A stretch of DNA of 64,000 nucleotides, taken from Pseudomonadota bacterium. Its GTDB lineage: Bacteria > Myxococcota_A > Bradymonadia > Bradymonadales > GCA-2716585. Each line of letters opens with the position of its first letter. Position 1 is the stretch's first letter. Below are positions 39,604 to 64,000 of the stretch, piece after piece. The notes under the pieces are model-generated. The model was not told the DNA's origin, made no database searches, and saw only the letters and a program-made list of their open reading frames with translations. The position numbers and the translations under genes are program-made. The DNA lies in NCBI GenBank assembly GCA_005804885.1, contig SYOX01000050.1:1-64000 (forward strand). The letters are read 5' to 3'.

Positions 39604-40581
39604 GTGGGCGAGGTGGTTGTGAAGGGCAAAGGGATCCTGGAGGACGTGACCAAGGCCGTTGGCAACACCCCGTTGGTGCGGCTGCGGAGGGTGGTGGAGG
39701 GGTGTCAGGCCGAGATCCTGGTCAAGATGGAGTCGATGAACCCGCTCTCCAGCGTCAAGGATCGGATCGGGGCCAGCATGGTGGAGGCGGCCGAGGCGGC
39801 GGGCAAGCTGGGGCCGGGGTCGGTGCTGATCGAGCCGACGAGCGGGAACACGGGGATCGCGCTGGCCTTCGTGGCGGCGGCCAGGGGCTATCGGCTCAAG
39901 CTGGTGATGCCGGACAGCTACAGCCAGGAGCGGCGGCTGATCTTCCGGGCGCTGGGCGCGGAGCTTGAGCTGACCCCGGGGCACCTTGGGATGCAAGGCG
40001 CGGTGGACAGGGCGCTGGCGCTGGCCGCGCGGCTCGACGACGCGCTGGTGTTGCAGCAGTTCGAGAACCCGGCCAACCCGGCGGCCCACGAGCGCTCGAC
40101 GGCCGAGGAGATCTGGCGCGACACCGAGGGCAAGATCGACGCGATCGCGACGGGCGTGGGGACGGGCGGGACGATCAGCGGGGTGACCCGGGGGCTGCGG
40201 AAAAAGAAGAGTGATTTCATGGCCTTCGCGATCGAGCCGGATCGGTGCGCGGTGATCTCGGGGGGGCCGCCGGGGCCGCACGAGATCCAGGGGCTCGGGG
40301 CCGGCTTCGTGCCTGGGAACCTCGACCGGGGCCTGCTCAACGGGGTCGTGCGGGTGACGGACGAGGAGGCCTTCGAGATGGCCCGCCGGCTGGCCAGGGA
40401 GGAGGGCCTGCTGGTGGGGATCTCCTCGGGGGCCAACGTGGTCGGGGCGCTCAAGGTGGCGCGGCTGCCGATGATGAAGGGGCGCCGTATCGTGACGGTG
40501 TGCTGCTCGGCCGGCGAGCGCTACCTGTCGACGAGGCTCTTTGAGCATCTGCGGAGCGCGGACCTGGAGGGCGAGTCATGA
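39604..40581 (+). CDS. cysK: cysteine synthase (O-acetylserine sulfhydrylase)
   Basis: VGNTPLVRLRR, NPLSSVKDRIG, EPTSGNTGIALAFVAA, TGVGTGGTISGV, VGISSGANV. Confidence 0.93.
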   Translation: MGEVVVKGKGILEDVTKAVGNTPLVRLRRVVEGCQAEILVKMESMNPLSSVKDRIGASMVEAAEAAGKLGPGSVLIEPTSGNTGIALAFVAAARGYRLKLVMPDSYSQERRLIFRALGAELELTPGHLGMQGAVDRALALAARLDDALVLQQFENPANPAAHERSTAEEIWRDTEGKIDAIATGVGTGGTISGVTRGLRKKKSDFMAFAIEPDRCAVISGGPPGPHEIQGLGAGFVPGNLDRGLLNGVVRVTDEEAFEMARRLAREEGLLVGISSGANVVGALKVARLPMMKGRRIVTVCCSAGERYLSTRLFEHLRSADLEGES

Positions 40582-41372
40582 ACTGGGGAGAGCGTCAGCG
40601 AACGCAGGTGAAGGTGACGCCGCCGACGCTGCCGGAGCCAGGGCTCCAGGGGATGCTGGCGATGATCCGGGAGGACATCGAGGCGGTGCGCGGCAATGAT
40701 CCGGCGGCGCGCGACCGGATTGAGATCCTGACCTCCTACCCGGGCTTGCACGCCATCTGGATGCACCGGGTGGCGCACGCGCTGTGGGGTGTGGGGATGA
40801 CGACGCGGGCCCGGATGGTGTCGAACCTGACGCGGGCGATCACGGGCGTCGAGATCCACCCTGGGGCGGTGCTGGGGCGCCGTGTGTTCATCGACCACGG
40901 GATGGGGGTGGTGATCGGGGAGACGGCGGTCGTGGGCGATGACTGCCTGATCTACAAGGGGGTGGTGCTCGGCGGCACGTCGCTGGAGCGCACCAAGCGG
41001 CACCCGACGCTGGGCGCGGGGGTGGTGGTGGGCTCCAACGCCTGCATCCTGGGTCGTGTGATGATCGGCGACGGGGCCAAGGTCGGCTCGTGCTCGGTGG
41101 TGATCCGCGACATGCCCGCGGGGGCGACGGCGGTGGGCGTCCCTGGTCGGATCGTGTCGACCACGGAGTCGCACGGGCCGCTGGACCACGGGGATCTGCC
41201 CGATCCGATCGCGACGGTGCTACGGGCGCTTCTGGAGCAGGTCGAGGGCCTCAGCGAGCGGATCGAGGCGCTGGAGGGCGTCCAGAGCGCCGATCACCGG
41301 GAGGAGGAGGCGGAGCTGCGCGCGATGAGGGCCGAGCTGGCGGCCGTGATCTACGAGGACTTCGGGGACTGA
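40578..41372 (+). CDS. cysE: serine O-acetyltransferase
   Basis: HAIWMHRVAHALW, GVEIHPGAVLGRRVFIDHGMGVVIGETAVVGDDCLIYKGVVLGGT hexapeptide repeats; ATGA overlap with cysK. Confidence 0.93.
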   Translation: MNWGERQRTQVKVTPPTLPEPGLQGMLAMIREDIEAVRGNDPAARDRIEILTSYPGLHAIWMHRVAHALWGVGMTTRARMVSNLTRAITGVEIHPGAVLGRRVFIDHGMGVVIGETAVVGDDCLIYKGVVLGGTSLERTKRHPTLGAGVVVGSNACILGRVMIGDGAKVGSCSVVIRDMPAGATAVGVPGRIVSTTESHGPLDHGDLPDPIATVLRALLEQVEGLSERIEALEGVQSADHREEEAELRAMRAELAAVIYEDFGD

Positions 41373-45180: not shown

Positions 45181-45365
45181 GGTTGCTCTCGGGTGTTTTG
45201 GCGTCGTCGGCCGTCGAGGGGCCATGAAACACCGAGCGGCCTTGAAGTTCAAGGGCGGGTCGGTGGGCGCTTTGCGCGCGGGCGCAATGATCTTATGATG
45301 GGGACATGGCAGGCGCCGCGTTCTCGGCTTGGAGCGCGCAACCCACTGAGAGAGATCTCGATCCC

Positions 45366-48300
45366 ATGGAAAACGCTCTGGACTTCCGCGATGAGCAGGA
45401 GAAGGTCGAGCCCTCCCCTTTGATGGAGGCGGGGCTGGAGGAGCCGCAGCAGGACACGAAGATCGAGGACACGCTGGCGCAGTCGGTCACGCCGACGAGC
45501 ACGCCGGAGCAGGCCGCGCAGGTGGTCGGTCAGTTCTCGCCGGAGCAGCAGCAGCAGTCCTTGATGTGGCTCAACAGCCACCGCGGGGCGCTCTTTGCCA
45601 GCCAGGTGGCGTCGATCCTGGACGGAACGGGCAGCGTGATCGACAAGCAGCTTGAGTCGCTGGGGGCCTCGGCGGGTCAGGCGGCGGGTCAGGCGGCCAG
45701 CGGCTTCCAGTTCGGGATCGCGGAGCAGACGGCGGCCGATCAGCAAAAAGACAAGAAGTACGCGGGCAAGGAGACGCTGGCGACCTACACCGATCCGCTC
45801 ATGGGGCAGTTCCAGGTGCTCTTTGACGTGGACCAGGGGGTCAGCGCCTCGTTGATGGACGGGGTGGTGACGGTCTTTGCGAAGTCGGGCTTGACGCTAA
45901 GGACGCCGCAGGGGTTGCCGGACGTGACGATCAAGCTCGTCCGGGTGGATCTGAAGACGGGCGCGGCGTCGATCGTGAGCGATCCGAAGATCGGGGCCTT
46001 CGAGGAGCGGCTGATTACGGAGGGTTTGAGGTCGAGCTTGCTGGCGGGCGTGGGGAAGATGGACTCGCAGGCGGATCTGGCCACGACCTTGGGGCTGGAG
46101 GTCAACAAGGAGGGCAAGATCCCGCTCTACGAGTCCGTCTGGGCGGACGTGTATCTGGACGCGAGCGCGGCGATCACGACGACGATGTCGGACAGCAAGG
46201 TGACGCTGCACTTCAGCGAGCCGATCTTCTGCGACATCCTCGGGCCGGTGAACCTGCACATCATGGCGATCGCGTACGACTTCCGGACGGCTTCGATCGA
46301 CTTGATCCCCCCGGCGACGGGCGGCGCGGTCGGGGTGGTGCTGGAGGAGTACGCCAGCCAGCTGGGGGAGGGCTTCGCCAACGACTTCATCCGGAGCAAG
46401 ATGCCGGCGGCGATGAAGGTGGCCGGCTACAGCCCGAAGAAGGATCCGAAGCTGACGGAGAACTTCAACGCGCTGCTGACCAACCTGGGGGTGTCCAAGG
46501 GGGACAAGTCCGAGGTGGACAAGGCGCGGGCGGCCGAGGAGGTCAAGGAGGCCAGGGGGGCAGCGCCGGCGGCCGACGCGGGGTCGGGAGGTTCGGGCGC
46601 CGAGGGTCCGCAGTGCGCGCCCCTGGAGGGCGACTTCGTGCCCTTGTACACGGTGAGCACGGCCTCGGGGACGATCGCGCTGGCGGTCGACAAGGGCGAC
46701 GCCTTCGACGTGAGCAAGTCGGCCACGGAGATCCGGCTGGGGGCCTCCAGGGGGATCTACGTGGTGGCGCCGGGTGCGCCCTACCTGTCGGAGCTGCGGA
46801 TCTTCGACGTGCGCTACGGGCTGGCCGACGGCAAGATCCAGATCAGCGCCTCGGAGGAGGTCGGGGAGCTGGTCACGGAGGTGCTGGAGTCGCTGATCCG
46901 CACCCAGGTGCTGCCCAGGATGCCCGGCGAGGTGCTCAGCAAGCTCGGGGTGGGCAAGGACCCGTCGCAGATGGAGGAGTCCGGCGACGAGGAGGTGCTC
47001 TACGCGGTCGAGGCGCCGGGGCTGGGCCAGGTGCAGGTGATGGCCGACGCCTCCGACACGGTGAAGATCTCGCGGGGCGAGACGCGCCTGGAGATCGCGT
47101 CGGCCAAGGGCGTGCGGCTGCGGGTGCTGGGCGCGGACTGGATCCCGGATCTGGTCATCGGGCTGCTGGCCTACGACACGGAGACCGGGCAGGTCGCCAT
47201 CGAGCCGCCGTCGGGCGGCGAGCGTCTGGACGCAGGGCCGCTGACGGAGAAGATCGTCGAGGCGATCATGCGCACGCAGCTCTTGCCGCTCTTGCCGGGG
47301 GAGGTGCGGGACTCGGCGGGGCTGGAGTCCTCGAAGGATCCGACGGCGGTGCCGGAGGCGCAGGGCAATGTGATCGTGAGCGACACCTGGGGTCCGCTCG
47401 GGCAGGTGGACGTCTCGCTGGCGCCGGGCGACACGATCGGCTTCAAGAACGGGCCGGAGGGCGCGGTGGCGACCATCAGCCAGGGCTTGATGGTGCGTGC
47501 GCCCTCGCTGGGCTTCGTGGTGCGGATCTTCGAGCTGGGCTACGATCCTGTGACGAAGAAGGTCACGACGCGCTCGGAGCCGAAGCTGGGCAGCTACGAG
47601 GAGGCGCTGATCGGGGGCGCGCTCGGCGAGTTCGTCATGCCGCAGCTGCAGGCCTGGATCGCGACCCACGACGAGGATCTGACCGACAAGCTGACGGTCT
47701 TGTATCGATCCGAGATCGAGGGCTTCGGCCAGTACAAGATCTGCGTCGAGGCCGGCGACTCGGTCCAGCTCCAGCAGGACGACGCGTCGCTGACCTTGAG
47801 CAGTTCGAAGGGGATCTTCTGGATGTCCGAAGGCGGCGACATCCAGAAGGTGTTGCCCTCCAACCGGATCACGCAGATCAGGCTGGACCTGAACACCGGC
47901 GAGATGACGATCAACGCCCGCTCGGGGGTGGGCCTGCTGGGCGAGCGCATCGCGACGCGCTTCTTGCAGTTCATGGCGCTGCCGCAGATCGACCCGGCGC
48001 TGCGCGAAAAGCTCTTCGGGGGCAAGGATCCGCTGCAGAAGGAGGAGGCCAAGGTGCCCGGGGCGCTCGGCAATGTGCTCTGGGAGGGGGATCTGGGCGG
48101 GCTGGGGCCGATCGACGTCTCGATCAAGGACGGCGACACGCTCGGGGTCGCGCAAGGCCCCGAGGGCATCAAGATCAACGTCGGGGGCGGCGTGCGCGTG
48201 CGGCTGCCGAAGATGGGGTTGACGGCGCGGATCTTCGAACTGGGCTATGACCCGCAGACGGGCAAGCTGACGGCGAAGTCCGATCCGCCCATGGGGCCCT

Positions 48301-50252
48301 ACGAGCAAGAGATCGTCGTCGGGGCGCTTGAGGCCTACGTGATGCCCTCGATCCAGGACTTCATGTCCAGGCAGGACGCCAACCCGAAGGACAGCACGCG
48401 GGTGCTCTTCAAGGCGGACCTGGGGGGTCAGGGCTCGGTGCGGATCTGCGTCGAGCAGAGCGACACGCTTCAGATCGATCAGGACGCCGAGTCGATCTCG
48501 GTCTCGGCGGCCCAGGGGATCTTCTGGCTGGCCGAGGGGGAGCTGTCCAGGACGCTGCCGGCCAACCGGATCCGCCGCGTGAGCATGTCGCTCAAGACCG
48601 GCGAGGTGGAGATCGACGCGGATCAGGACATCGGCCCGCTGGGCGAGCACGTGGCCACGCGGGTGATCCAGTCGGCGGTGCTGCCCCGGATCGACGCCAG
48701 GACGCGCGACATGCTCTTCGGGGGCCAGGATCCGCTGCAACAGGAGAAGCCGGCCTTGCCCAAGGCCGGTCAGGTGCTCTACAGCGGGAAGGTGGCCGGG
48801 ATGGACTTCGACGTGAGTCTGGCCGGCGGCAAGTTCTCGATCGACGCTCTGCCCGGCGGGCAGCTGGCCTTCGGGGCCAACAGCGGCGGGCTGATGCTCC
48901 GGGTGCCCCAGATGGCCCTGGCCGTGACGCTCTTTGACATCGCCTACGACCCCAAGGCGGCCACCCTGACCCACCTGCGGACCCACCCGCCGGTCGGGGC
49001 CGGGGAGCTGGAGCTGCTCCAGGCGGCCATCCGGCAGTTCGCCCAGCCCGCCATCGCCGAGTACGTCAAGCCCGAAAAGGGCGACGGCGCCAAGGGCCTG
49101 CGGACGGTGGCGGCCTTCGGCGGCGTCTCGCTCAAGGTGCCGGTCGAGGGCAGCGTGAGCGTCAACCACGGCGACCGCTTCACCGAGGTCCGCTCCGAGG
49201 CCGGCATGGTCATCGAGAGCGGCCTTCTGTCCGAGGCGCCGCCTCGGCTGCGCTCGGTGCGCTACGAGCACGGCACGGGTCGCATCAGCCTCGATCTCGT
49301 CAACACGGTCGACAACACCGTCTACAAGGATCAAACGGAGGTCTCGGGCTTCACCCAGGACGTCATCAGCGGCCTGGTGCGCCGCCTCGTCGACCCGCAC
49401 CTGACGCCGGAGATGCGCGCGATGGGCCTGGCCGGCGCCGAGGCCCAGCCCGAGACCTCCGCGCGCCCTCGCCAGGGCGAGACGACCTGGATGGACATCA
49501 CCAGCGAGGCCGTCGGTCGGGTGCTGCTCTTCACCCAGAAGGACGACGCGATCTCGCTCGTGGCCGGCAGCGAGGAGTTCAACCTGACCTCCAAGGGCGG
49601 CGTCCGGCTCGTCCTGCCCGATCTGGGCGTCAGCCAGACCTTCTCCTCGCTGCGCTACCACCTGGGCACGGACGACGTCCAGCTCACCGGCATGGGCCGC
49701 CTGGAGCACGCGCTGATGCGCAATGTCGCCCGCGCCATGGTCGGGCCGCTGCTGGCCCAGCAGGGCGTGGATCTCAAGGACCCCAAGGGGATGGGCCAGC
49801 AGCTGCGCGAGCAGCAAGAGGAGACCAAGAAGGGCGAGCTGCTCATCAAGACCGACGGCGCCGAGCTCTACGTGCCCTCCAACTGCGTCATGACGGCCAC
49901 TCTGACCGGCGCCGGCCTCCGGGTCGGCTTCGAACCCAAGATCTGGATCGACGGGCCGAGCTTCGGCAACTTCTACCTCGACAAGATCAAGTACGACTTC
50001 GCCACGGCCAGGACCGAGGTCGACATCGACGGCTCCAACATCCTCTCGGCGATCTTCGAAGGGGTCGGCGAGGACAAGGCCACCGCCCCCCTGGCCGAGC
50101 TGCTCAAGCAGAAGATGCCGGCCGCCATGCGCGCGCCCGGCTACAACCTCTTCGCCGACCCCAACAAGTCCGTCAACCTCGCCCAACTCTTCAAGAATTT
50201 CAATCAGCCCGCCCCTGAGACCGAGGCCGACAAGGGCAAGAAGAAGAAGTAG
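45366..50252 (+). CDS. large modular repeat protein of unknown function
   Basis: ORF 45306-50252; about 12 degenerate ~115-aa modules (G-D-x..G-hhh..hYD..TG..h..MP); no signal peptide; Lys-rich C-terminus GKKKK; start 45306 or 45366. Confidence 0.75.
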
Positions 50253-50636: not shown

Positions 50637-53600
50637 ATGGTCGGACATGCGGGTTCTGGAGAGGTCGGCGTCGGCCGTCTGATGGTGCTTGGCGGCGTGC
50701 TGCTGGCGCTCGGGGCGATTGTCCCGGCGTGCACGTGCGAAGGCCCGACGGTGCCGATCCCGTCCGTCCCGGACGTCGGCCTGGATGTGTCGCCCGACTT
50801 CGACGCGGATGTCGATGAGGGCGAGGATACGGAGGTCGAGGACGTCGCCGACGCGGACCTGCCCGACGACGCGGACGATGACGCCAGCGACGTCGACGGC
50901 GATGCCGGGGACGACGCTGGGGACGTGGTCGAGGAGGATCGCTTCCTGGCCAGCTGCCTCTTCCCGGTGCTGGATTGCCTGGGCGCCAACGCCGAGGCGG
51001 TCAGCTGTACGATCAACACGGTGAACGGCGAGACGGCGGTCAGCTACGGCAACGGCCGGGCGGCGCGCTGGTCGCGGGATGGACAGGGGCAGGTCTTCTT
51101 CGAGGCCTTCGTCGACTCGGCGCTGTGCTACGAGGCCCAGGCGCTCGATCCGCTGGACGTGCCCTTCGCCTGGGACATCACCTCGGGCGGCGATCAGCCG
51201 GCGCGCTTCGGCGTGGCCCGCGACGAGGACGATCGCTCGATAATCGTCGTGACCTGCCCGGACGCGAGCGTCGAGCGCTACCGGGTCGAGGAGGTCCAGC
51301 CCTACCTGCCCTCGATCCTGGCCGCCGATGACGAGCTGTGCGTCCCCCTCGGGCCGCCCCGCTGCGAGGAGAACCCGGATTGTCAGATTTTTGATGAATC
51401 CTTTGAGTGCTGCCCTGTCGCGGGGACCGCGCGCTGCCTGGTGCCCAACCAGTGCCCGGCCATCCCGGAGGCGCCGCCCGAGCTGGACAGCTGCCTGACG
51501 GAGATGCTCGACTGCTTCGGGCTGCGGCACGTGCCGCTGGCCTGCAGCATCGATCCGAACGTGGGGACGACGGACGTCGCCTACACGCGGGGTCGCCGCG
51601 CGGTCGTCACCAACGACGGCTTTGACAACTTCACCATCGAGACGAGCTCCGAGCGGGGCCTGTGCTACGTGGCCGCGACGCCCAGCCGGGAGCCCTTCTC
51701 GCAGATCAACTTCACGGATCCGAACACGAACGAGTCGGCCCAGGTGACCTTCGAAGGGGGCCGGGCGCGGGTGGTCTGCGCGGACAACACGCGCGAGGAG
51801 CACGACGCCGAGTCCATCCTCCAGTACGTGCCGATCCTGCTGGACGAGACCGAGGACATCTGCACGGTCGAGCCGATCAACGTCTGCTCGCCGGGCGATC
51901 CGGAGCGCGATTGTGAGGCGGGGCTGTGCTGCCCGACGCTGGACGGCAACCGCTGCCTGGACGTCGAGGCCTGCCCCGAGGTGCGCGACCCCTGGGACAC
52001 GAGCTGCATGCGGCCCCTGATGGACTGCTTCGGGGCCAACCAGGCGCTGGCGATCTGCATCGAACACACCGATCTGGAGATCACCGAGGTCGGCTACGTC
52101 TCGGGCGCCAGAGCGACCTACTACGTGGACCAGGGCCGGCAAACCCGGCGCACCTTCTTTGAGCGCGATCGCTGCTTCGAGGCCGTGCAGGTGACGGACG
52201 ACGGCTCCAGCTTCGAGATCTCGGATCTGACCAACGGCGACCTCTACGAGGTCCGCTTCGTCGGCGACGAGGCGCAGATCACCTGCCCCGACGCCGCCCG
52301 CGAGTCGGTCCCTGCCCGCAGAGTCCGGTCCTACCTGCCCGCTCGCCCCAACCCCCTCCAATGCAACGACCCGCTGCGCGACGACCAGTGCTCAGGCAAC
52401 AACGACTGCGGCGATGGCCTGGAGTGCTGCAACGTCGGCGACAGGAACCTGTGCCTGGTCGAGGGCGACTGCGATGACTTCCAGCCGCGCCAGGCCTGCA
52501 GCGGCGACAACCAATGCGGAGAGGGCTCGGAGTGCTGCGAGCTCTCCCCCGTCCGCGTCTGCAACCCTCGCCTGTGCGGCGACGACCAGCTCTGCTGCGC
52601 TCTGGAGCGGGCCGAGGTCTGCGCGCCGGGTGGCGTGTGCGACCGCGGCGACATCTGCGATCCGGGCAACCCCGACGACTGCAACAACGGCGAGCTGTGC
52701 TGCTCGACCCTGGACGGCAACCGCTGTCTGAATGTTCAGACCTGTCCCGACCTGAACGATCCCTGGGGCACGAGCTGCCTCTTCGGGACCTTCGAGTGCT
52801 TCGGCACCGTCCAGGATCTGCTCTCCTGCACCTTCGATCCAGCCCTGGAGATCTCCGAGGTCGAGTACGAGTCGGGGGCGCGGATGGTCTTCTACGAGTC
52901 GGCCCAGCGCCCCGGTCGGCGGGCCAGCTTCGGCGGCCAGCCCTGCTTCAACGCTCTGGAAGGGCCAGATGGCCTCGAGGTCGAGGATCTGCTCACCGGC
53001 GAGCGCTTCGTCGTGGAGTTCAACCGCGGCGACGCGCAGATCACCTGCCCCGGCGCCGAGGTGCAGGTGGTCCCGGCCTCGGACGTCCTGGCCTACCTGC
53101 CGCAGGCGCCGGACAGCTCGATCTGCGAGCTGCGCGATCGCAATGACAACTGCGATCAGGACGCTGACTGTGGGCCGGGCCTGGTGTGCTGCGATACGGG
53201 AGACAGGAACCTGTGCCTGGCGTCCGACGACTGCGAGCGGAGCCAGCCGCTGACGACCTGCCTCGACAACAGCCAGTGCGGCCGGGACGAGGTCTGCTGC
53301 GAGCGCGAGCTGGTCAACGTCTGCGACGTGGCCGTCTGCGGCGACAGGCTGTGCTGCTCGACCCCCTCGTCGCTGGTCTGCGGCTCGGACACCGAGTGCA
53401 ACCGGGTCGACGCCTGCGACCCGCTCGACCTGAGCTCCTGCCAGCCCGGCGAGCAGTGCTGCGAGACGGAGCTGGGCAAGCGCTGCCTGGGCAATGTGGG
53501 CGTCTGCCCCGATCCCGATGATCCCATCGGGACGAGCTGCATCGCCCTGGTCCTGGAGTGCTTCGGGGCCAACAACGAGCTCGACAGGTGCACCGACCAG

Positions 53601-56600
53601 GGCGGCGGGCTGGGGATCACGCAGGCGACCTACGTGTCGGGCAGCTCCGCGCTCTTCTTCACCCACGAGCGCGAGTTCGGCGCCCGGACGGCCAACAGCG
53701 TCGACGATTGCTACCAGATCCTGGGTTCGGAGCGCTCGGGCTTCGAGCTGGTCGATCTGCTCAGCGGCAACAATTACAGCATCTCGGTGGTCGGCCCCGA
53801 GGCGACGGTGAGCTGCCCCTTCTCGCGCACCTCGGTGATCCCGATCAGGGAGCTGCGGCCCTACCTGCCCGTGGCGCCGGAGCCGGAGCTCTGCGATGTG
53901 GCTCCCCGCCAGGACGAGTGCACCCAGGACAGCGACTGCAATGACAACCAGCTCTTCTGCTGCAACGTCGGCGATCGGAACCTGTGCCTGATCAGCGATC
54001 ACTGCCAGGAGTCTCTGCCGAGGGTCGCCTGCGACGACGAAAGCCAATGCGCCGACGGCGAGGTCTGCTGCGGGTTTGCCCGTGCGCGGGTCTGCGATCC
54101 GGCGTTGTGCGATGGCGAGCTGTGCTGTGACCTTCAGGGCATCTCGGTCTGCACCGGCGACCTGGAGTGCGACTCTCAGGTCTTCGACGAGTGCGAGGTC
54201 AACAACCCCGACGCCTGCCCTGGCGACGACTCCTGCTGTCCGACCGATCAGGGCTCGCGCTGCCTCCCCGTGGATGGCGGCCAGTGCCCCAGCCCCATCG
54301 CGGGGACGTGCCTGGAGGGCCCGCTGGAGTGCTTCGGCCGCAACCCGACCTTCAACCAGTGCCTGGTGCGCGACGAGCCCAACCGCTCGATCTCGGTGAC
54401 CTACGCCGAGGGCTCGCGCAACCTCTTCACCGACCAGGGGGGCCAGGAGCACCGCCTGTCGGGCTTCGGCCCCACGGACTGCTTCGAGGCGCTGGCCAAC
54501 GGCAACGGCTGGGATCTGCTGGATCTGGAGACGGGCGACAGCGTCAGCCTGACGATCAGCGGCAGTCAGGTCTTCGCGACCTGCCCGGACAACACCACCG
54601 CGCGGGCGCCCCTGGCGCTGATCCAGGAGTACCTGCCGGCGCCCCCGATCGAGGACCAGTGCGTCTCGCCGCAGATCCAGTGGGAGGCGAGCTGCCTCTT
54701 CGGCCTGCTGGAGTGCTCGGGCGCTGACCTGGTCCAGGACTCCTGCATCGATTACGGGGATCTCGTCGACCGCACGGAGGTCGATTACGGCGGCGGCGTC
54801 GTCGGGATCTTCTCCAACAGGGCCGGTGTGCCCATCGTCCAGACCAGGGCGGACGGGCTCCCCTGCTTCGAGGCGGCCGTGGGCGACACCTCGCTCCAGA
54901 TCGTCGATCTGATCTCGGATGAAGCCTATCAGGTTGAATTTGCAGGTAATCTGGCCACCATTCGCTGCCCGAACGGGCGCTTCCAGGCGGTCGACAGCGC
55001 CTTCATCGGCCCCTACATCCCGGAGCGGCCTGCCGCCGAGCTGTGTGAGGCCGCGCCGCGCAATGATCTGTGCCAGGTGGACGCGGACTGCGGCGATCCC
55101 CAGTTCGTGTGCTGCGACGTGGGCGAGGCGAACCTGTGCCTGTTGGAGGAGGGTTGCCTCAGGAGCGAGCCGAGGCCGCTGTGCGATCAGATCGAGGACT
55201 GCGCCTCGGGTCAGTTCTGCTGCGATCGCGCCAACGTCAGGGTCTGCGATCCGGATCTGTGCGGGGACGCGATCTGCTGCGATCAGCCCTCGGCGCAGGT
55301 CTGCGGGACGGAGGACGAGTGCAACGGGATCTTTGACCTGTGCAGCCCGCAGGAGCCGGGCAGCTGCGGGCCGGGGTCGCTGTGCTGTGACACGATCGAT
55401 GGCAACCGCTGCATCGGGGAACAGGTCTGCCCGCCGCCGCCGGACCCGCTGGAGGGCAGCTGCATCCACTCGACGCTGCTGTGCTTCGGGCGCTTCAACG
55501 AGCTGGCCCAGTGCATCGACTACGGCCAGGACGTGGACGTGACGCTGGCGCAGTACGTCGGCGGCCAGAGCGCGACCTTCTACACCTCGTCGGGGCGGCC
55601 GGCGCGGCGGACCTCCTTCGCGGAGGGCTTTGAGTGCTACGACGCCTTCGAGGACGAGGCCGGGGGCTTCCAGGTCCAGGATCTCTTCGACGGCGGGGTC
55701 TACGAGATCGCCTTTGACGGGATCGAGGCGGTGATCACCTGCCCGGACGCCAGCGTGGAGAGGGTTCGTCGCTCGGCGGTCAGGGACTACTTCACCGCGC
55801 GGCCGCAGCCCGAGGAGTGCCAGCCGCCGGGGCGTGACGACGAGTGCCAGGTGAACGCGGACTGCGACGATCTCGTGCCGGGCTTCGAGTGCTGCGACGG
55901 CGGGGACCGCAATGTGTGCGTGGAGCCGGGCAGCTGCCCGCTCAACAGCCCCCACGCGACCTGCGACGTGGCCGAGCACTGTGGGGGAGGCCAGGAGTGC
56001 TGCGATCTGGGCTTCGCGCGGATCTGCGATCCGACGGTGTGCGGCGCCGATGTGTGCTGCAACGTCTTCCAGGCGCGGGTCTGCGGCGAGAACGCCGAGT
56101 GCAACAACTTCGTCGACGTCTGCTCGCTCGGCGCCCAGGACTGCCCCGGCGACGGGGTGTGCTGCGCGACGAACAACGGGTCGCGGTGCTTCGAGGGGAT
56201 CAACGATCGGGCCAACTGCCCGGTGCCGGAGAACCCCTTCCCGGAGAGCTGCCTCTTTGACGCCTTTGACTGCGCCGGTGAGGCCGGGGAGATCGATCAG
56301 TGCGTGGATCTGGGCAGCCAGCGGCTCTCGGTCAGCTACAGCGGCGGCTCCCAGGTCGTCTTCGAGGTCCTCGGCGGCCGGGAGTTCCGACGGGTCAGCT
56401 CGGGCGGGCAGGGCTGCTTTACGGCGCTCACCCGTGGAGATGGCTTTAACATCAGTGACTTGCGAAACGGCGGCGCCATCGACATCACCTTCCAGGGGGC
56501 CAACGCGCGGGTGACCTGCGCCGACGACACGATCGTCAACATCCCGCGCCCGATCCTTGAGGCCTACCTGCCTTCGGGGCCAGTGCCGCAGCAGTGCCAG

Positions 56601-59600
56601 AGCGCCGAGGCCGGCTGGAGGGGGAGCTGCCTCTTCGGGCTCTTTGAGTGCTTCGGGGACGAGAACCGCTTCGACGCCTGCCTGGATTACGGCACCCTGA
56701 ACTTCACCTCGGTGGATTACAACTCGGGCAATGTGGCGACCTTCTTCAACGACCGCGATGGCGCGGAGGTGGTCAGGACGCGGGACGTCAACCAGCAGCC
56801 TTGCTTCCGGGCGGAGGGGAATCCGGGCACGGGCTTCGAGGTCGAGGATCTGCTGACGGGCGAGCGCTACGGGCTGGCCATCCAGGGCGACGTGGTGAGG
56901 ATCACGTGTCCGGACGACAGCGTCGCGGACGTCCTGAGCGCGTTCCCGCTGGCCTACATCCCCTCGCGCCCGGACGCAAACCTCTGCGAGGACTTCAACC
57001 GCGAGGACCGGTGCCAGGTCAACTCGGACTGCGGCAATGGCTTTGTGTGCTGCGACCTTGGGGATCAGAACTTCTGCACCACCCGCGAGAGCTGCGAGAG
57101 GAGCCGACCGAGGCCGACCTGCGACAACAACAGTCAGTGTCAGGAGGGGACGACGTGCTGCGAGTTCGGCCCGTCGATCGTCTGCGATCCGGATCAGTGC
57201 GGCGGCCAGCCTTGCTGCAGCATCGATCGGACGGACGTGTGCGGCACGGCCGACGACTGCAATGGGATCTTCAACGTCTGCACGCTGGGCGACAACTCGA
57301 CCTGCGGCAACCGCGAGCTGTGCTGCGAGACCAATGAGGGCGACCGCTGCGTCGTGGGTAACGTCTGCCCGCCGCCGCCGGACCCGTTGATCGGCAGCTG
57401 CCTCTTTGACCTCTTCTCGTGCTTCGGGCGCCTGAACGAGGTCGACAGCTGCGTCGATTACGGCAGCCTGGACATGACGGAGACCACCTACACGGGCGGG
57501 AAGAGGGCGGTCTTCTACACCCACGAGGGCGAGCCGACCCGGATCGCGGGCGACAACCTGACCTACTGCTTCGAGGCGGTCGATCTGGGAGATGGCTTCC
57601 AGATCCGGGATCTGGACAACGGGGACATCTACAGCGTGGCGCTGGGCCAGGGGGTCGCGACGATCCAGTGCCCCGACGCGGCGCTGGAGCAGGTGCCGCT
57701 GGCTGGGCTGCTGGCCTACCTGCCGGAGCGCCCTGCGGCCGAGACCTGCGCGCCCTTCGAGATCGACACCGGCGAGTGCGCGGTCGACGCGGACTGCCGC
57801 GACCTCGATCCGCTGCTTGAGTGCTGCGACACCGGGGATCGGACGGCCTGCCTGGCGCCTGACGGGTGCCGCAGGAACCAGGTCCGGGCGACCTGCAACG
57901 AGAACGCCGACTGCGGCCAGGGTCAGGAGTGCTGCAGCCTGTTCACGACGCGGGTCTGCGACCCGACGCTGTGCGGCGAGGCGCTGTGCTGCGACGTGGG
58001 CGGTGATCCGGTCTGCGGGACGCACCTGGAGTGCAACGAGATCCTTGACGTGTGCGAGGTGGGCAACAACGCCACGTGCGGCAACGGCGAGCAATGCTGC
58101 GACACGATCTCCGGGTCCCGCTGCATCGCCGACAACGGCGGCCAGTGCCCGCCGGTGCCGGATCTGTTCGCGGAGAGCTGCCTCTTTGAGGCCTTCGAGT
58201 GCTTTGGGCGCAACGCGCAGCTGCTGGCCTGCTTCGACGTGGACGGCCTGAGGACCGAGGTGACCTACACCAACGGCTCGCGCAACCGCTTCTTCGAAGA
58301 GGGCGGCTTCGAGGGCAGGCTCTCCGGCAATGCCTTCCGCGACTGCTTCAGGGCGGTGGCGACGGACGCGCCCGAGGGCGGCTTTACGGTCATCGACGCG
58401 CGGACGCGCCAGGAGTCGTCGGTGACCTTCATCGGGGACCAGGTGCAGATCCTGTGCAGCGACTCGACGGTGTTCAACGTCGCCCGCACCAGGGTCGAGG
58501 CCTACCTGCCGGCCCGGCCCGAGCCCGTGGCCTGCGACAACGCCGAGGCGCAGTGGCAGCGCAGCTGCCTCTTCGGGACCTTCGAGTGCTTCGGCGACGA
58601 GCTGCAGGTCGATCAGTGCGCCAACCACATCGGGCTGGGCATCCAGCAGGTCGAGTACGCCAGCGGCTCCCAGGCCAGCTACTTCTTCACGGGGGGTCAG
58701 CGGGCCTTCCGGGCGCGCTCGGCCACCGAGCAGTGCTTCCAGGTGCTGGCCGACAACCAGGGGGCTCTGCAGGTCCAGGATCTGATCACCGGGGAGGTCT
58801 TCGGGATCAGCTTCAACGGCGACGCGGCCCAGATCACCTGCCCTGGGCAGCAGATCCAGACCGTCCTGCGCTCCAACGTCGACGCCTACCTGCCCGACGT
58901 GCCCGACCCCTGCGACCCGGCTCCCCGCGACGATCGCTGTCAGGCCGACGCCGACTGCCGCGATCCGCAGCTGATCTGCTGCGACAGCGGGGACAGGAAC
59001 ACCTGCGCGACGCGGGACGACTGCGCCCGCTCGCAGATCCGCGTCGGGTGCGACCTGGAAGGCGTGCAGGGCGAGCAGCTTGAGCAGGGCACCTGCGAGC
59101 AGGGCCAGTTCTGCTGCGGCGTGTCCCCGCGGCGCGTCTGCGACCCGAGCCGCTGCGGCGGCGAGCTGTGCTGCACCGTCGAGGAGGGGCTGGCCTGCGG
59201 GACCGAGCGCGACTGCGCCGGGATCGTGGACGTCTGCACCCTCGGCGACGCGGGCAGCTGCGCCCAGGGCCAGGTCTGCTGCCCGACCGAGATCGGGACG
59301 GCCTGCGTGGTGGGCAACATCTGCCCGCCGCGGGCCAACACCATCGACGACACCTGCCTCGGCGGCGTCGTCTCCTGCTTCGGCCCGCGCCAGTTCGAGT
59401 CCTGCGAGGTCACCCCGGGCCTGGACCGCGTCGACTCGGCCTACAGCCTCAACGGCGAGGTGATCCACTTCACCGATCAGGGCGCCCCGGCGCTGTTGAC
59501 CGCCTCCAACGGGCTGGCCTGCTACTCGGCCAGGGTGCTCAACGGCGGCGACGCCTACGAGATCGTCGACGTGTCCACCGGCGACCGCTTCGAGATCGCC

Positions 59601-62600
59601 GTCGACGGCATCAGCGCCCTGGTGACCTGCCCGGACGCCACCGTCCAGCCCGCCCTCCTCGAGGATCTGTTGCCCTTCGTCCCGGCCCGGCCGCTGGACA
59701 ACCAGTGCACCAACATCCCTCGACAGGACGAGTGCACCAACGACGCCCAATGCGGCCAGGGCCTCGTCTGCTGTGATACCGGCCAGTCCAACGCCTGCCT
59801 CGCCGTGCAGACCTGCTTCCGCCAGACCCCCAGGGAGACCTGCGCGGGCGACGGCGCCGACTGCGGCGAGGGCCGGCTCTGCTGCCAGATCACTGAACAG
59901 CGGGTGTGCAACCCCTCGACCTGCGGTCTCAACCAGGTCTGCTGTGACACCAACGAGGCCTTCGTCTGCGGCACGCCCGACGAGTGCGCCGACATCTTCG
60001 ACGAGTGCGACGTCAACAACCCGACCTTCTGCGCCCAGGGCGACCTGTGCTGCCCGACCCTCGGCGGCAACCGCTGCACCGTCGGCGGCGTATGCCCCGA
60101 GGAGCCCGATCCCATCGACAACACCTGCCTCGCCGACGTCTTCGAGTGCTTCGGCCGCGACAGAGCCCAGACCGCGTGCGTCGACTTCGGCATCCTCGAC
60201 CGCACCGAGGCCTCCTACGGCGCCGATCAGGCCGTCTTCTACACCTACAGGGACCAGAGCGCCGTGCGCACGCGCTCGCTGGGCCAGCCCTGCTACGAGG
60301 CCATCGACTCCGGCGAGGGCGGCTACCTGATCACAAACCTCAACAACGGCGATGTCTTCACCGTGGCTCTCCAGGACGGCGCCGCCCTGGTGACCTGCGC
60401 CGACAACAGCCAGCAGGTCACCGACTTCGGAGCCCTGCGCCGTCACATCCCCCAGCGGCCCGCCGCCAACGCGTGCCAGGTCGCCGTCCGCCAGGACGAG
60501 TGCACCAGCGACGCCCAGTGCCGTGGGATCGACCCGACCCACATCTGCTGCGACATCGGCGATCAGAACATCTGCGGCAACCGCGAGACCTGCGCCCGGG
60601 CCACCCCCGTGTCCGACTGCGTCGAGAACACCGACTGCGCCGAGGGGACGCTCTGCTGCGTCTTTGAGAGCGCGCGCTATTGCGACCCGACCTCGTGCGA
60701 TGACGACCTCAACCCCTGCTGCAACCGGAACGAGGGCCGCGGCTGCGCCACGGAAGACCAGTGCAACGGGAGGTTTGACCGGTGTGACCTGAACGACCAC
60801 TCCACCTGCGGACCCGGCGCGGTGTGCTGCCCGAACTTCGGCGGCGCCATCTGCCTCGGGGGCGACGCCTGCCCCGAGCCGCCAGACGAGATCGAGGCCT
60901 CGTGCATCGGATCGACGCTGGGGTGCTTCGGCCGCGATCAGGTTCAGCTGGCCTGCGTGGATTACGGCACTTTGGACCGCACCGAGGTGTCCTTCGAAGG
61001 CGGCACGAGCCTGATCTTCTTCGAGCGCTTCGCGTCCGAGGCTCGCCGAGCGCTCACCAACGGCGTCGAGTGCTACGACGCCGTGCGGACCGAGGCGGGC
61101 TTCGAGGTCCGCGACCTCTTCCTCGATCAGAACTACGCGATCGCCATCAACGGCGGCGTGGCCGAGATCACCTGCCCCTTCGGAAACCAGACCCAGCAAG
61201 TGCCGCTGGATCTCCTGCTGGCCTACTTGCCGGATCGACCGGCGCCCAACACCTGCGCGCCCTTCGATCGCAATGACGAGTGTGTCAACGACGCCCAGTG
61301 CGGCGACGTCAACCTGGGGTGCTGCGACATCGGCGACCGCAACATCTGCCTGACCCGGGAGTCCTGCACCCGCAACCAGCCTCGCCCCTTCTGCGACGGC
61401 AACGACGCCGACTGCGGGCAGGGTCAGTTCTGCTGCGAGATGCCCAACGTCCGGGTCTGTGACCCCGAGATCTGCCCTCGGGACCAGGCCTGCTGCGACA
61501 AGACCGCCGCCCTGGTCTGCGCCACCGACCGCGAGTGCAACGGGATCATCGACCTGTGCGACACCAACGACGCCGGCTCCTGCAACCCGAACGAGCGCTG
61601 CTGCGAGCTCGCCCAGGGCACCCGCTGCCTCGTTGGCCTGCAGCAGTGCCCCGCGCCGCCCGATCCCATCGTCGGCACCTGCCTGGAGTCGACCTTCGGC
61701 TGCTTCGAGCGCAACCACACCCTGACCTCGTGCGTGGACTTCGGCGGCGCGCCGGATCGCACCGAGGCGACCTACAACAACGGCGCCGTCGGCGTCTTCT
61801 TCTCCCGCCGCCAGGTCCCGGCCATGCGCGCCGTCAGCCAGGCCGGCATCGCCTGCTTCAACCGCTTCGACGTGGTCGAGGACGGCTCCATCGTGATCGA
61901 GGAGCTGATCGATGATCAGAACGGGCCGCGCGTGCTGACCCACCGGGTCGCCTTCGTCGGCCCCAACGCCGTGATCACCTGCGCCGACGCGGCCGAGTTC
62001 ACCCTGCCCCGCTCGGCCGTGGAGGCCTACCTGCCCGATCGCCCCGACGCCGGCCAGTGCGCGCCGCCCGTGCGCGACGACGAGTGCCAGCGGGACGCCG
62101 ACTGCCTCGTGCCCGGCGAGTTCTGCTGCGACATCGGGGATCGGACCGCCTGCCTGCCCGGGCAGGGCTGCTTCGAGAACACCCCCCGGCCGATCTGCGC
62201 CATCGACAGGAACATCGAGGGCGACGTCGACGAGACCTGCCCCCAGGGGACCCTGTGCTGCGATGTCCCCACCCGCGTCTGCGACCCTGCCATCTGCGGC
62301 GGCGAGGTCTGCTGCACGCCTCCCATCGATCAAGCCCCGACCGTCTGCGCCACGGAGGACGAGTGCAATCAGATCGCGGACTTCTGCGCGCTGGACAACC
62401 CGGCCTCCTGCCCCGACAACGCGCTGTGCTGCCCGACGGCCCAAGGCAACCGCTGCATCATCGGCGAGTGCCCCGAGCCGCCCGATCCCGTCCTTGAGAC
62501 CTGCCTCCTGACCCCCTTCGGCTGCTTCGGCGCCGACAACGTCCTGAACGCCTGCGTGGACTTCGGCGACCTCGACCGCACCGAGGTGACCTTCTCCAGC

Positions 62601-64000
62601 GGCGCCGAGGCCCTCTACTTCACCGACTCGCTCGGCCGGCCCACCATGCGAGCCTCCGACGGCGTCGTGAGCTGCTTCGACGCCTTCGAACTCGAAGGCG
62701 GGTCCATCGAGATCCAGAGCCGCCTCAACCCCAACGACAACTTCACCATCGAGTTCTTCGGCCAGGACGCCCTGATCGTCTGCAACCTGAACAATGAGTT
62801 CCTCGTGCCGCGCGCCGCCCTCGATCGCTACCTGCCGGCTCGACCCGCCGCCAACGCCTGCGGCGCGCCCGTGCCCAACAACGAGTGCGACATCGATCTC
62901 GACTGCCTGGAGCTTGACCCGAACCTGCGCTGCTGTGACATGGGCGACCGCAAGATCTGCGGCTCCAGCCAGGAGTGCTCGCTCGGCGTCCCTCGCCGCA
63001 CCTGCATCCAGGACGGCAACGCCCCCGAGGTCGACAGCGCCTGCCCCGGCCAGGCCCCCCTGTGCTGTGAGGTCCCCGGCGTGAGGGTCTGTGACCCGGA
63101 CTTGTGCGGCGATCAGGTCTGCTGCTTCCCCATTGTTCAAGACTTCGGGGTCTGCGGGACCAGCGCCGAGTGCAACGGGCTGGTCGACTTCTGCGCCCAG
63201 AACGCCGACTGCGTCCAAGGGCAGGCGTGCTGTGAGACCAACCAGGGCAACCGCTGCATCAACGGCGGCCAGTGCCCCGACCCGCCCGATCCCATGGACG
63301 GCAGCTGCCTGCAGCCGACCCTCCAGTGCTTCGGCCGCAGCCGCGAGGTGATCAGCTGCGAGGACTTCGGAGACCTCGACCTGACGGTGGCCCAGTACGA
63401 CGCCGACGTCATCGCCCACTACTACACCCACCAGGGCGCGCCCGTCCGCCGCACCGAGCTGCCCAACGCACAGCCCTGCTACGAGGCCATCCAGGTCGAC
63501 GGCGGCGGCTTCCAGATCCTCGACCTGTCGTCCAACGAGGCCTTCCAGGTCGCCTTCAACGGCCAGACGGCCACGATCTCCTGCCCTGGCAACGTCGTGG
63601 AGACCGTCCCGACGGCCGCCGTGCTGGCCTACATGCCCGACCGGCCCGCCCAGAACGCCTGCGCCCCGGCCAATCGCGGCGACCAGTGCCAGCAGGACGC
63701 CCAGTGCCGCGCCATCGACTCGCGCCTCGGCTGCTGCGACGTCGGCGACCAGAACATCTGCGGATCGGGGCAGTCCTGCGCCCAGAACATCCTTCGCCAG
63801 ACCTGCGACGACGAGGCCGACTGCGCCCAGGGCGACGTGTGCTGCCCGATGGTCAACGCCCGAGTCTGCAACCCCAGCGTCTGCCTGCCCGGCCAGACCT
63901 GCTGCAACCCCGCGCTGACGAGCGTCTGCGCGACCCGGGTCGAGTGCAGCGGCGTCCTTGATCACTGCGTGCTCGGCGATCCTCTCTCCTGCGGCAACGG
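50637..64000 (+). CDS. giant Cys-rich tandem-repeat lipoprotein, incomplete at window end
   Basis: ATG 50637 with upstream AGGGAG; in-frame stop at 50610; signal MVLGGVLLALGAIVPAC; acidic linker; 19 copies of [ST]CL..xxxECFGxx domain; none of the >=60-aa + strand ORFs listed after 50637 lies in this frame, consistent with an uninterrupted frame to the window end. Confidence 0.9.
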   Translation, partial: MVGHAGSGEVGVGRLMVLGGVLLALGAIVPACTCEGPTVPIPSVPDVGLDVSPDFDADVDEGEDTEVEDVADADLPDDADDDASDVDGDAGDDAGDVVEEDRFLASCLFPVLDCLGANAEAVSCTINTVNGETAVSYGNGRAARWSRDGQGQVFFEAFVDSALCYEAQALDPLDVPFAWDITSGGDQPARFGVARDEDDRSIIVVTCPDASVERYRVEEVQPYLPSILAADDELCVPLGPPRCEENPDCQIFDESFECCPVAGTARCLVPNQCPAIPEAPPELDSCLTEMLDCFGLRHVPLACSIDPNVGTTDVAYTRGRRAVVTNDGFDNFTIETSSERGLCYVAATPSREPFSQINFTDPNTNESAQVTFEGGRARVVCADNTREEHDAESILQYVPILLDETEDICTVEPINVCSPGDPERDCEAGLCCPTLDGNRCLDVEACPEVRDPWDTSCMRPLMDCFGANQALAICIEHTDLEITEVGYVSGARATYYVDQGRQTRRTFFERDRCFEAVQVTDDGSSFEISDLTNGDLYEVRFVGDEAQITCPDAARESVPARRVRSYLPARPNPLQCNDPLRDDQCSGNNDCGDGLECCNVGDRNLCLVEGDCDDFQPRQACSGDNQCGEGSECCELSPVRVCNPRLCGDDQLCCALERAEVCAPGGVCDRGDICDPGNPDDCNNGELCCSTLDGNRCLNVQTCPDLNDPWGTSCLFGTFECFGTVQDLLSCTFDPALEISEVEYESGARMVFYESAQRPGRRASFGGQPCFNALEGPDGLEVEDLLTGERFVVEFNRGDAQITCPGAEVQVVPASDVLAYLPQAPDSSICELRDRNDNCDQDADCGPGLVCCDTGDRNLCLASDDCERSQPLTTCLDNSQCGRDEVCCERELVNVCDVAVCGDRLCCSTPSSLVCGSDTECNRVDACDPLDLSSCQPGEQCCETELGKRCLGNVGVCPDPDDPIGTSCIALVLECFGANNELDRCTDQGGGLGITQATYVSGSSALFFTHEREFGARTANSVDDCYQILGSERSGFELVDLLSGNNYSISVVGPEATVSCPFSRTSVIPIRELRPYLPVAPEPELCDVAPRQDECTQDSDCNDNQLFCCNVGDRNLCLISDHCQESLPRVACDDESQCADGEVCCGFARARVCDPALCDGELCCDLQGISVCTGDLECDSQVFDECEVNNPDACPGDDSCCPTDQGSRCLPVDGGQCPSPIAGTCLEGPLECFGRNPTFNQCLVRDEPNRSISVTYAEGSRNLFTDQGGQEHRLSGFGPTDCFEALANGNGWDLLDLETGDSVSLTISGSQVFATCPDNTTARAPLALIQEYLPAPPIEDQCVSPQIQWEASCLFGLLECSGADLVQDSCIDYGDLVDRTEVDYGGGVVGIFSNRAGVPIVQTRADGLPCFEAAVGDTSLQIVDLISDEAYQVEFAGNLATIRCPNGRFQAVDSAFIGPYIPERPAAELCEAAPRNDLCQVDADCGDPQFVCCDVGEANLCLLEEGCLRSEPRPLCDQIEDCASGQFCCDRANVRVCDPDLCGDAICCDQPSAQVCGTEDECNGIFDLCSPQEPGSCGPGSLCCDTIDGNRCIGEQVCPPPPDPLEGSCIHSTLLCFGRFNELAQCIDYGQDVDVTLAQYVGGQSATFYTSSGRPARRTSFAEGFECYDAFEDEAGGFQVQDLFDGGVYEIAFDGIEAVITCPDASVERVRRSAVRDYFTARPQPEECQPPGRDDECQVNADCDDLVPGFECCDGGDRNVCVEPGSCPLNSPHATCDVAEHCGGGQECCDLGFARICDPTVCGADVCCNVFQARVCGENAECNNFVDVCSLGAQDCPGDGVCCATNNGSRCFEGINDRANCPVPENPFPESCLFDAFDCAGEAGEIDQCVDLGSQRLSVSYSGGSQVVFEVLGGREFRRVSSGGQGCFTALTRGDGFNISDLRNGGAIDITFQGANARVTCADDTIVNIPRPILEAYLPSGPVPQQCQSAEAGWRGSCLFGLFECFGDENRFDACLDYGTLNFTSVDYNSGNVATFFNDRDGAEVVRTRDVNQQPCFRAEGNPGTGFEVEDLLTGERYGLAIQGDVVRITCPDDSVADVLSAFPLAYIPSRPDANLCEDFNREDRCQVNSDCGNGFVCCDLGDQNFCTTRESCERSRPRPTCDNNSQCQEGTTCCEFGPSIVCDPDQCGGQPCCSIDRTDVCGTADDCNGIFNVCTLGDNSTCGNRELCCETNEGDRCVVGNVCPPPPDPLIGSCLFDLFSCFGRLNEVDSCVDYGSLDMTETTYTGGKRAVFYTHEGEPTRIAGDNLTYCFEAVDLGDGFQIRDLDNGDIYSVALGQGVATIQCPDAALEQVPLAGLLAYLPERPAAETCAPFEIDTGECAVDADCRDLDPLLECCDTGDRTACLAPDGCRRNQVRATCNENADCGQGQECCSLFTTRVCDPTLCGEALCCDVGGDPVCGTHLECNEILDVCEVGNNATCGNGEQCCDTISGSRCIADNGGQCPPVPDLFAESCLFEAFECFGRNAQLLACFDVDGLRTEVTYTNGSRNRFFEEGGFEGRLSGNAFRDCFRAVATDAPEGGFTVIDARTRQESSVTFIGDQVQILCSDSTVFNVARTRVEAYLPARPEPVACDNAEAQWQRSCLFGTFECFGDELQVDQCANHIGLGIQQVEYASGSQASYFFTGGQRAFRARSATEQCFQVLADNQGALQVQDLITGEVFGISFNGDAAQITCPGQQIQTVLRSNVDAYLPDVPDPCDPAPRDDRCQADADCRDPQLICCDSGDRNTCATRDDCARSQIRVGCDLEGVQGEQLEQGTCEQGQFCCGVSPRRVCDPSRCGGELCCTVEEGLACGTERDCAGIVDVCTLGDAGSCAQGQVCCPTEIGTACVVGNICPPRANTIDDTCLGGVVSCFGPRQFESCEVTPGLDRVDSAYSLNGEVIHFTDQGAPALLTASNGLACYSARVLNGGDAYEIVDVSTGDRFEIAVDGISALVTCPDATVQPALLEDLLPFVPARPLDNQCTNIPRQDECTNDAQCGQGLVCCDTGQSNACLAVQTCFRQTPRETCAGDGADCGEGRLCCQITEQRVCNPSTCGLNQVCCDTNEAFVCGTPDECADIFDECDVNNPTFCAQGDLCCPTLGGNRCTVGGVCPEEPDPIDNTCLADVFECFGRDRAQTACVDFGILDRTEASYGADQAVFYTYRDQSAVRTRSLGQPCYEAIDSGEGGYLITNLNNGDVFTVALQDGAALVTCADNSQQVTDFGALRRHIPQRPAANACQVAVRQDECTSDAQCRGIDPTHICCDIGDQNICGNRETCARATPVSDCVENTDCAEGTLCCVFESARYCDPTSCDDDLNPCCNRNEGRGCATEDQCNGRFDRCDLNDHSTCGPGAVCCPNFGGAICLGGDACPEPPDEIEASCIGSTLGCFGRDQVQLACVDYGTLDRTEVSFEGGTSLIFFERFASEARRALTNGVECYDAVRTEAGFEVRDLFLDQNYAIAINGGVAEITCPFGNQTQQVPLDLLLAYLPDRPAPNTCAPFDRNDECVNDAQCGDVNLGCCDIGDRNICLTRESCTRNQPRPFCDGNDADCGQGQFCCEMPNVRVCDPEICPRDQACCDKTAALVCATDRECNGIIDLCDTNDAGSCNPNERCCELAQGTRCLVGLQQCPAPPDPIVGTCLESTFGCFERNHTLTSCVDFGGAPDRTEATYNNGAVGVFFSRRQVPAMRAVSQAGIACFNRFDVVEDGSIVIEELIDDQNGPRVLTHRVAFVGPNAVITCADAAEFTLPRSAVEAYLPDRPDAGQCAPPVRDDECQRDADCLVPGEFCCDIGDRTACLPGQGCFENTPRPICAIDRNIEGDVDETCPQGTLCCDVPTRVCDPAICGGEVCCTPPIDQAPTVCATEDECNQIADFCALDNPASCPDNALCCPTAQGNRCIIGECPEPPDPVLETCLLTPFGCFGADNVLNACVDFGDLDRTEVTFSSGAEALYFTDSLGRPTMRASDGVVSCFDAFELEGGSIEIQSRLNPNDNFTIEFFGQDALIVCNLNNEFLVPRAALDRYLPARPAANACGAPVPNNECDIDLDCLELDPNLRCCDMGDRKICGSSQECSLGVPRRTCIQDGNAPEVDSACPGQAPLCCEVPGVRVCDPDLCGDQVCCFPIVQDFGVCGTSAECNGLVDFCAQNADCVQGQACCETNQGNRCINGGQCPDPPDPMDGSCLQPTLQCFGRSREVISCEDFGDLDLTVAQYDADVIAHYYTHQGAPVRRTELPNAQPCYEAIQVDGGGFQILDLSSNEAFQVAFNGQTATISCPGNVVETVPTAAVLAYMPDRPAQNACAPANRGDQCQQDAQCRAIDSRLGCCDVGDQNICGSGQSCAQNILRQTCDDEADCAQGDVCCPMVNARVCNPSVCLPGQTCCNPALTSVCATRVECSGVLDHCVLGDPLSCGN

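Follow-up and report, generated by a model that had tools for sequence, protein, structure and literature searches.

The stretch of DNA analysed here (the window) covers the first 64,000 bases of a contig 69,386 bases long, and it ends within a giant Cys-rich gene that runs past the window edge, opening at ATG 50637 on the plus strand and closing at TAA 66213-66215, such that the full gene spans 50637-66215 of the contig. The preliminary description, drawn up from the window, had reported a frame open from this ATG through base 64000 with at least 4454 codons; translation bears this out, as no in-frame stop lies between 50637 and 64000, and the full length is now established as 5192 codons, with the stop on the same contig. 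The start context, AAAGCAGGGAGAGTGGCATG, contains a plausible ribosome-binding site. The gene was correctly said to be absent from the list of open reading frames that accompanied the sequence, but its absence stems from the ORF lister and not from biology, most simply because the lister omits frames running off the end; once open ends were allowed, the gene was included as '3open'.

The encoded protein of 5192 aa (552 kDa) is strongly acidic, with Asp and Glu making up 16% of its residues, and contains 528 Cys (10.2%), including 72 CC pairs. Lys occurs only five times (0.1%) and Arg amounts to 5.6%. A Lys content of 0.06-0.13% is seen in homologues, and 0.8-8.6% in ten other genes of the window. 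The features of the locus are collected in Table 1.

Table 1. Features of the giant gene and its upstream neighbour; the last two rows lie beyond the window and are given in contig positions.
Feature	Position	Strand	Basis
Upstream 1648-aa protein, neighbour of the giant gene	45306-50252	+	
Giant Cys-rich lipoprotein gene, part inside the window	50637-64000	+	
Signal sequence ending IVPAC, Cys32 likely lipidated	50637-50732	+	translation
Asp/Glu-rich spacer	50733-50951	+	translation
A domain 1 (head type)	50955-51329	+	
A domain 2 (head type)	51492-51848	+	
A domain 3	52005-52364	+	
B segment, four C-C-CC-C-C modules, 22 Cys	52371-52769	+	
A domain 4	52776-53126	+	
B segment	53133-53531	+	
A domain 5	53538-53894	+	
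B segment	53901-54296	+	
A domains 6 and 7, tandem, no B segment between	54309-55046	+	
B segment	55050-55454	+	
A domain 8	55461-55820	+	
B segment	55824-56243	+	
A domains 9 and 10, tandem	56250-56987	+	
B segment	56991-57389	+	
A domain 11	57399-57749	+	
B segment	57765-58172	+	
A domains 12 and 13, tandem	58179-58910	+	
B segment	58917-59348	+	
A domain 14	59355-59708	+	
B segment	59712-60119	+	
A domain 15	60126-60476	+	
B segment	60480-60896	+	
A domain 16	60903-61256	+	
B segment	61260-61673	+	
A domain 17	61680-62060	+	
B segment	62067-62492	+	
A domain 18	62502-62861	+	
B segment	62871-63299	+	
A domain 19	63306-63662	+	
B segment, window part (runs on to 64079)	63666-64000	+	
A domain 20, past the window	64086-64439		
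A domain 21, past the window	64740-65096		

Following an N-terminal head, the protein is built from two alternating units. Domain A, of 118 aa with six invariant Cys, is present in 21 copies, and most of these are separated by segment B, of 137 aa with 22 invariant Cys; the exceptions include three sites at which A domains stand as doublets (A6-A7, A9-A10, and A12-A13). The B segments resolve into modules with the Cys order C-C-CC-C-C, of which the complete protein has 68 (about 70); CC-x7-C occurs in 62. After A21, a Cys-only tail runs for about 370 residues to the stop at 66215. The head corresponds to what the preliminary description had set out, namely a lipoprotein-type signal followed by an acidic spacer: residues 1-32 resemble such a signal when read by eye, with a hydrophobic core and then IVPAC, and the lipobox is non-canonical in this copy. 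Heads of the same signal-Cys-acidic-spacer kind were found in five relatives (G002, G003, G004, G011, and G012), with signal ends including LLAGC, FATAC, and WAPGC, likewise by eye.

That the gene might be an assembly artefact, or a non-coding frame kept open by high GC, deserves consideration given that the genome (hereafter G000) is in 428 contigs with 6.6% contamination, and that a long open frame lies antisense to the gene. The composition of the gene is strongly coding, with GC of 0.64/0.50/0.93 at codon positions 1/2/3. Of the other two sense frames over the same stretch, one is interrupted by 66 stops and one by 70, and two of the antisense frames are interrupted by 108 and 114. The remaining antisense frame is stopped only once, since TTA and CTA codons are absent from the giant gene and TCA occurs in it a single time. 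The antisense open frame observed in the window at 52392-63998 (minus strand, over 3850 codons, 3877 aa on the contig) is thus a by-product of the codon bias of the giant gene. No long tandem array was found in the gene by Tandem Repeats Finder, and the A domains share a mean identity of only about 33% at the protein level, so that collapse of short reads is of no concern here. An orthologue with all Cys kept exists in an independently assembled genome, G002, which represents another genus of the same family; it is a 5214-aa open frame (contig C574), or 5193 aa from the likely start, and closure of the frame as an artefact just past the window is thereby contradicted. With an orthologue and no repeats at the DNA level, an artefactual origin was rejected and must be regarded as extremely unlikely; the giant gene is confirmed as real and complete.

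The G002 orthologue repeats the order of 21 A domains, the three doublets included. For every A module of G002 the best match is the same-numbered module of G000 (mean 53% identity versus 32% off the diagonal), indicating that copy number and order are conserved and not drifting. In a tree of the A domains of both proteins, most same-numbered pairs are sisters and nearly all others are separated by one or two further domains. A recent tandem duplication was likewise rejected, the modules being 33% identical within the protein and orthologous in register with G002. All 528 Cys of the G000 protein align to Cys in G002 while the other positions are 49.9% identical, the next best kept residues being Trp (88%) and Tyr (71%), with NG86 estimates of dN 0.39 and dS 0.87 for the pair. 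It follows that each Cys is under selection, since all were kept while the remainder of the protein diverged to about 50% identity.

The preliminary description considered a surface-anchored, disulfide-dense fibre or adhesin plausible, a view that is partly supported. Its disulfide density is well served by these figures: the Cys are even in number and entirely conserved in both full orthologues, and the 528 are very probably disulfide-bonded, judging from the sequences. One might alternatively picture a cross-linked matrix, in which intermolecular disulfides join the chains into a sheath or surface layer in the manner of the chlamydial Cys-rich outer-membrane proteins, for which the very high Cys content and the probable lipid anchor would be suitable properties. 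That the Cys count is even in the two full-length orthologues, as it is in every A unit (6) and B unit (22), favours closed intramolecular pairing instead, leaving such a matrix improbable.

Members of the Bradymonadales are facultative predators, mainly of saline places, with genomes of 5.0-8.0 Mb (PMC7460792). Domain A was detected in eight of the 58 nearest genomes, all belonging to one order, and in the same eight among 57 genomes of the class; none was found elsewhere among 379 genomes of the phylum, for which fewer candidates were scored per genome. G004 contains two further giant copies broken by contig ends (5' parts C166 and C610, 3' parts C434 and C612), of which C610 retains all three A doublets, the A6-A7 doublet being common to it and G002, and matches 356 of the 462 G000 Cys within the aligned range. 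The homologue in G003 is only 1236 aa long with three A domains, and the sister family has single-A-domain frames of about 330-600 aa; this series of shorter relatives suggests that the giant grew from a short ancestor. A head-only paralogue in G000 itself (contig C167, L040:5757-8336, minus strand) has two A domains and adjoins a sigma-factor-like gene. Elsewhere in the phylum, a few genomes gave weak matches to B-like stretches. No plasmid-borne relatives were found, and a scan of named genomes with the C-terminal part of the giant returned no match.

Domain A is apparently a new domain family. No Pfam match was obtained with pieces of 1572-1587 aa of the giant protein, and the N-terminal 1587 aa and C-terminal 1572 aa matched no NCBIfam family up to E 1, the Cys-rich repeat of Myxococcus included; the sequence profile of domain A found no relative among PDB sequences. 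An AlphaFold2 model of domain A, with window sequences as input, reached pLDDT 96 and is mostly beta, with a helix and nine consecutive strands, and a model of A plus B, again from window sequences, reached pLDDT 90. Foldseek searches with domain A against the PDB and BFVD gave nothing below E 1e-3, and it is in this sense, unmatched in the PDB and in viral models, that it is termed an orphan fold. Consecutive antiparallel strands are common to domain A and its Foldseek neighbours, the polo-box, MORN, and WD40 beta folds, but none of these constitutes a match, as E is never below 6e-3, the TM-score never exceeds 0.40, and the rmsd is always greater than 6 Å. A polo-box fold, the best PDB match at E 6e-3, was rejected with a TM-score of 0.24-0.28 and an rmsd of about 14 Å.

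The identity of segment B bears on a second reading, that of an armour or shield in which the B modules are small inhibitor-like domains coating the cell against proteases, its own secreted ones or those it encounters, with no specific adhesion. The C-C-CC-C-C order, which in inhibitor cystine knots and colipase-like modules goes with I-IV, II-V, III-VI pairing, is present in 68 modules and resembles that of inhibitor-type miniproteins, which would count towards this reading. Six of 12 B segments weakly match WAP (PF00095), the best at E 0.0027 and below the Pfam cut-off, and the top PDB sequence matches of the B profile, Dickkopf/colipase-type Cys modules headed by Dickkopf-1 chains (E 0.2), are non-significant. 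The near absence of Lys noted above may also be read in favour of a shield. WAP four-disulfide cores and B modules are both small, Cys-rich, and equipped with a CC pair, but the WAP spacing after CC is 3-4 residues and that of B is seven: the core CC-x3/4-C-x3/4-C of eight Cys does not occur once, the modules being CC-x7-C-x4/5-C, and membership of WAP was rejected. The Dickkopf N-terminal Cys-rich family (PF04706) was rejected as well, as 12 B segments gave no match even at E values as high as 10. No inhibitor loop was identified, and protease evasion through scarcity of Lys is unsupported because Arg is plentiful and trypsin sites are consequently not avoided. A protease shield is considered unlikely.

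The 1648-aa protein encoded upstream of the giant gene has no Pfam or NCBIfam match and contains internal repeats of the form GxLGxVDVS...RIFELGYDP. Its type occurs in this family and in one other family of the class; the homologue adjoins the giant gene upstream in G004:C610 and lies on another contig in G002. Genes of cysteine synthase (PALP) and serine acetyltransferase type occupy 39604-41372 of the window, some 10 kb before the giant gene. A functional tie of these to the giant gene was rejected, as the same conserved block in G002 is far from the giant gene, and their proximity is probably a chance of the neighbourhood.

Downstream, a second gene begins about 770 bp past the giant gene and is interrupted by the contig end in G000; it is kept beside the giant gene in G000, in G002, and in both 3' pieces from G004. 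Its product is secreted, with an N-terminal domain of the form YFGGHCRIC...TYACSNGHGSW and PF11617 (MopE) motifs, which score above the Pfam cut-off in the G000 fragment (202.9 bits). The G002 partner (L058:3413-18187) is a 4924-aa frame in which PF11617 reaches 1057 bits over 33 stretches, with further matches to LamG (lectin-like) and FG-GAP, and G002 thus presents two giant genes side by side, the A-domain lipoprotein and its partner. The C-terminus of the partner, e.g. GNCSAPSFTGNNPAPAGGFGLLLLLGLGLIVVRRKR, has a Cys, a hydrophobic stretch, and RRKR, and resembles MYXO-CTERM by eye, although no NCBIfam model of this kind (TIGR03901 type) matched at E <= 0.1. MYXO-CTERM is a tag by which Myxococcota sort proteins to their surface, with myxosortase and type II secretion taking part (PMC11980579). 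A protein with MopE motifs is also found 3' of the short G003 homologue, and a weaker one 3' of that in G012. Matches to the downstream domain in a scan of named genomes were confined to metagenome-assembled genomes ('uncultured proteobacterium'). Two further G000 frames combine a YxGGxCxxC...YACSNGHG N-terminal domain with a MYXO-CTERM-like end, one of 4017 aa on contig C364 (L059:2117-14170) and one of 1287 aa on C164 (L060:3921-7784); no A-domain lipoprotein was found on the stretch read beside either.

As the PF11617 family is named copper-binding, a metal or redox sink may be envisaged, in which the Cys and acidic residues of the giant (528 Cys, 16% Asp and Glu) bind metals together with the MopE-motif protein downstream. 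Its Cys are nevertheless even in number and lie at fixed positions in confidently modelled exported modules, as is expected of disulfides, with six per A unit and 22 per B unit without exception, and a sink of this kind is judged to be quite improbable.

The reading preferred here, to which about an even chance is assigned, is that of an exported lipoprotein forming an outer-membrane-anchored, disulfide-stapled stalk that acts with the downstream partner in surface contact; its anchoring in the outer membrane, its exposure, and its role in adhesion are what we infer from the features above. The protein would be exported by Sec and lipidated at Cys32, a periplasmic DsbA/VKOR system would oxidise it to yield about 264 mainly intramolecular disulfides, and type II secretion would then move it to the outer surface. 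G000 contains 17 DsbA-type matches, two VKOR, and the type II secretion secretin GspD. Matches to the DsbA family number 15-22 per genome in G000, G002, and G004, several falling in one frame, and 11 in G012. The resulting stalk would be stiff and resistant to proteases; the fixed number of domains argues for a fixed length, by rough estimate of the order of 200 nm. The downstream protein, whose lectin-like and MYXO-CTERM-like features favour a role in surface contact, would be the likely ligand-binding partner of the stalk, and the two would attach to cells or surfaces. This last step is the weakest of the proposal; it is on account of the partner that adhesion appears the likeliest use of the giant. 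Counting against the stalk are the non-canonical lipobox IVPAC, the lack of any domain with known binding function in the giant, the gap of ~770 bp to the partner gene, which makes co-transcription only putative, and the partner-type copies on C164 and C364, beside which the stretch read shows no A-domain lipoprotein. More tentatively still, and with doubt outweighing confidence, the giant may represent an undescribed, order-specific class of bacterial surface fibre stapled by disulfides, combining an orphan 118-aa fold, ~70 miniprotein modules, and ~264 disulfides per chain at a fixed length, and paired with a giant lectin-like protein of MYXO-CTERM type.

If the Cys are indeed oxidised, about 264 correct disulfides per chain would be an extreme task for bacterial oxidative folding. 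Domain A, as an apparent new family, can be named and its structure solved. The way in which these bacteria grip other cells, their own kind, or surfaces may find its explanation in the giant pair, and such an attachment role is testable in the relatives with short versions.

Giant surface proteins as such are already known. The giant adhesins of the RTX, BapA, and Ig-like repeat types share with the present protein a length of thousands of residues, a repetitive build, and an assumed surface role, but they are nearly Cys-free and composed of Ig-like or RTX repeats, whereas the protein described here is disulfide-dense and composed of an unmatched domain. To our knowledge, a giant with 10% Cys, an unmatched repeat domain, and complete Cys conservation has not been described, and no published report of one was found in open-licence papers. 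A parallel may also be drawn with TraA of Myxococcus, a MYXO-CTERM cell-surface receptor with Cys-rich repeats and a role in contact (PMC3325183, PMC11980579), inasmuch as both would be surface proteins of Myxococcota type, partly Cys-rich and active in contact, the last being putative for the giant. TraA is far shorter, with the Cys of its C-terminal tag at residues 686-687 (PMC11980579), and is anchored at its C-terminus, whereas the giant, for which NCBIfam offers no match, bears a lipoprotein-type signal at its N-terminus and extends over 5192 residues.
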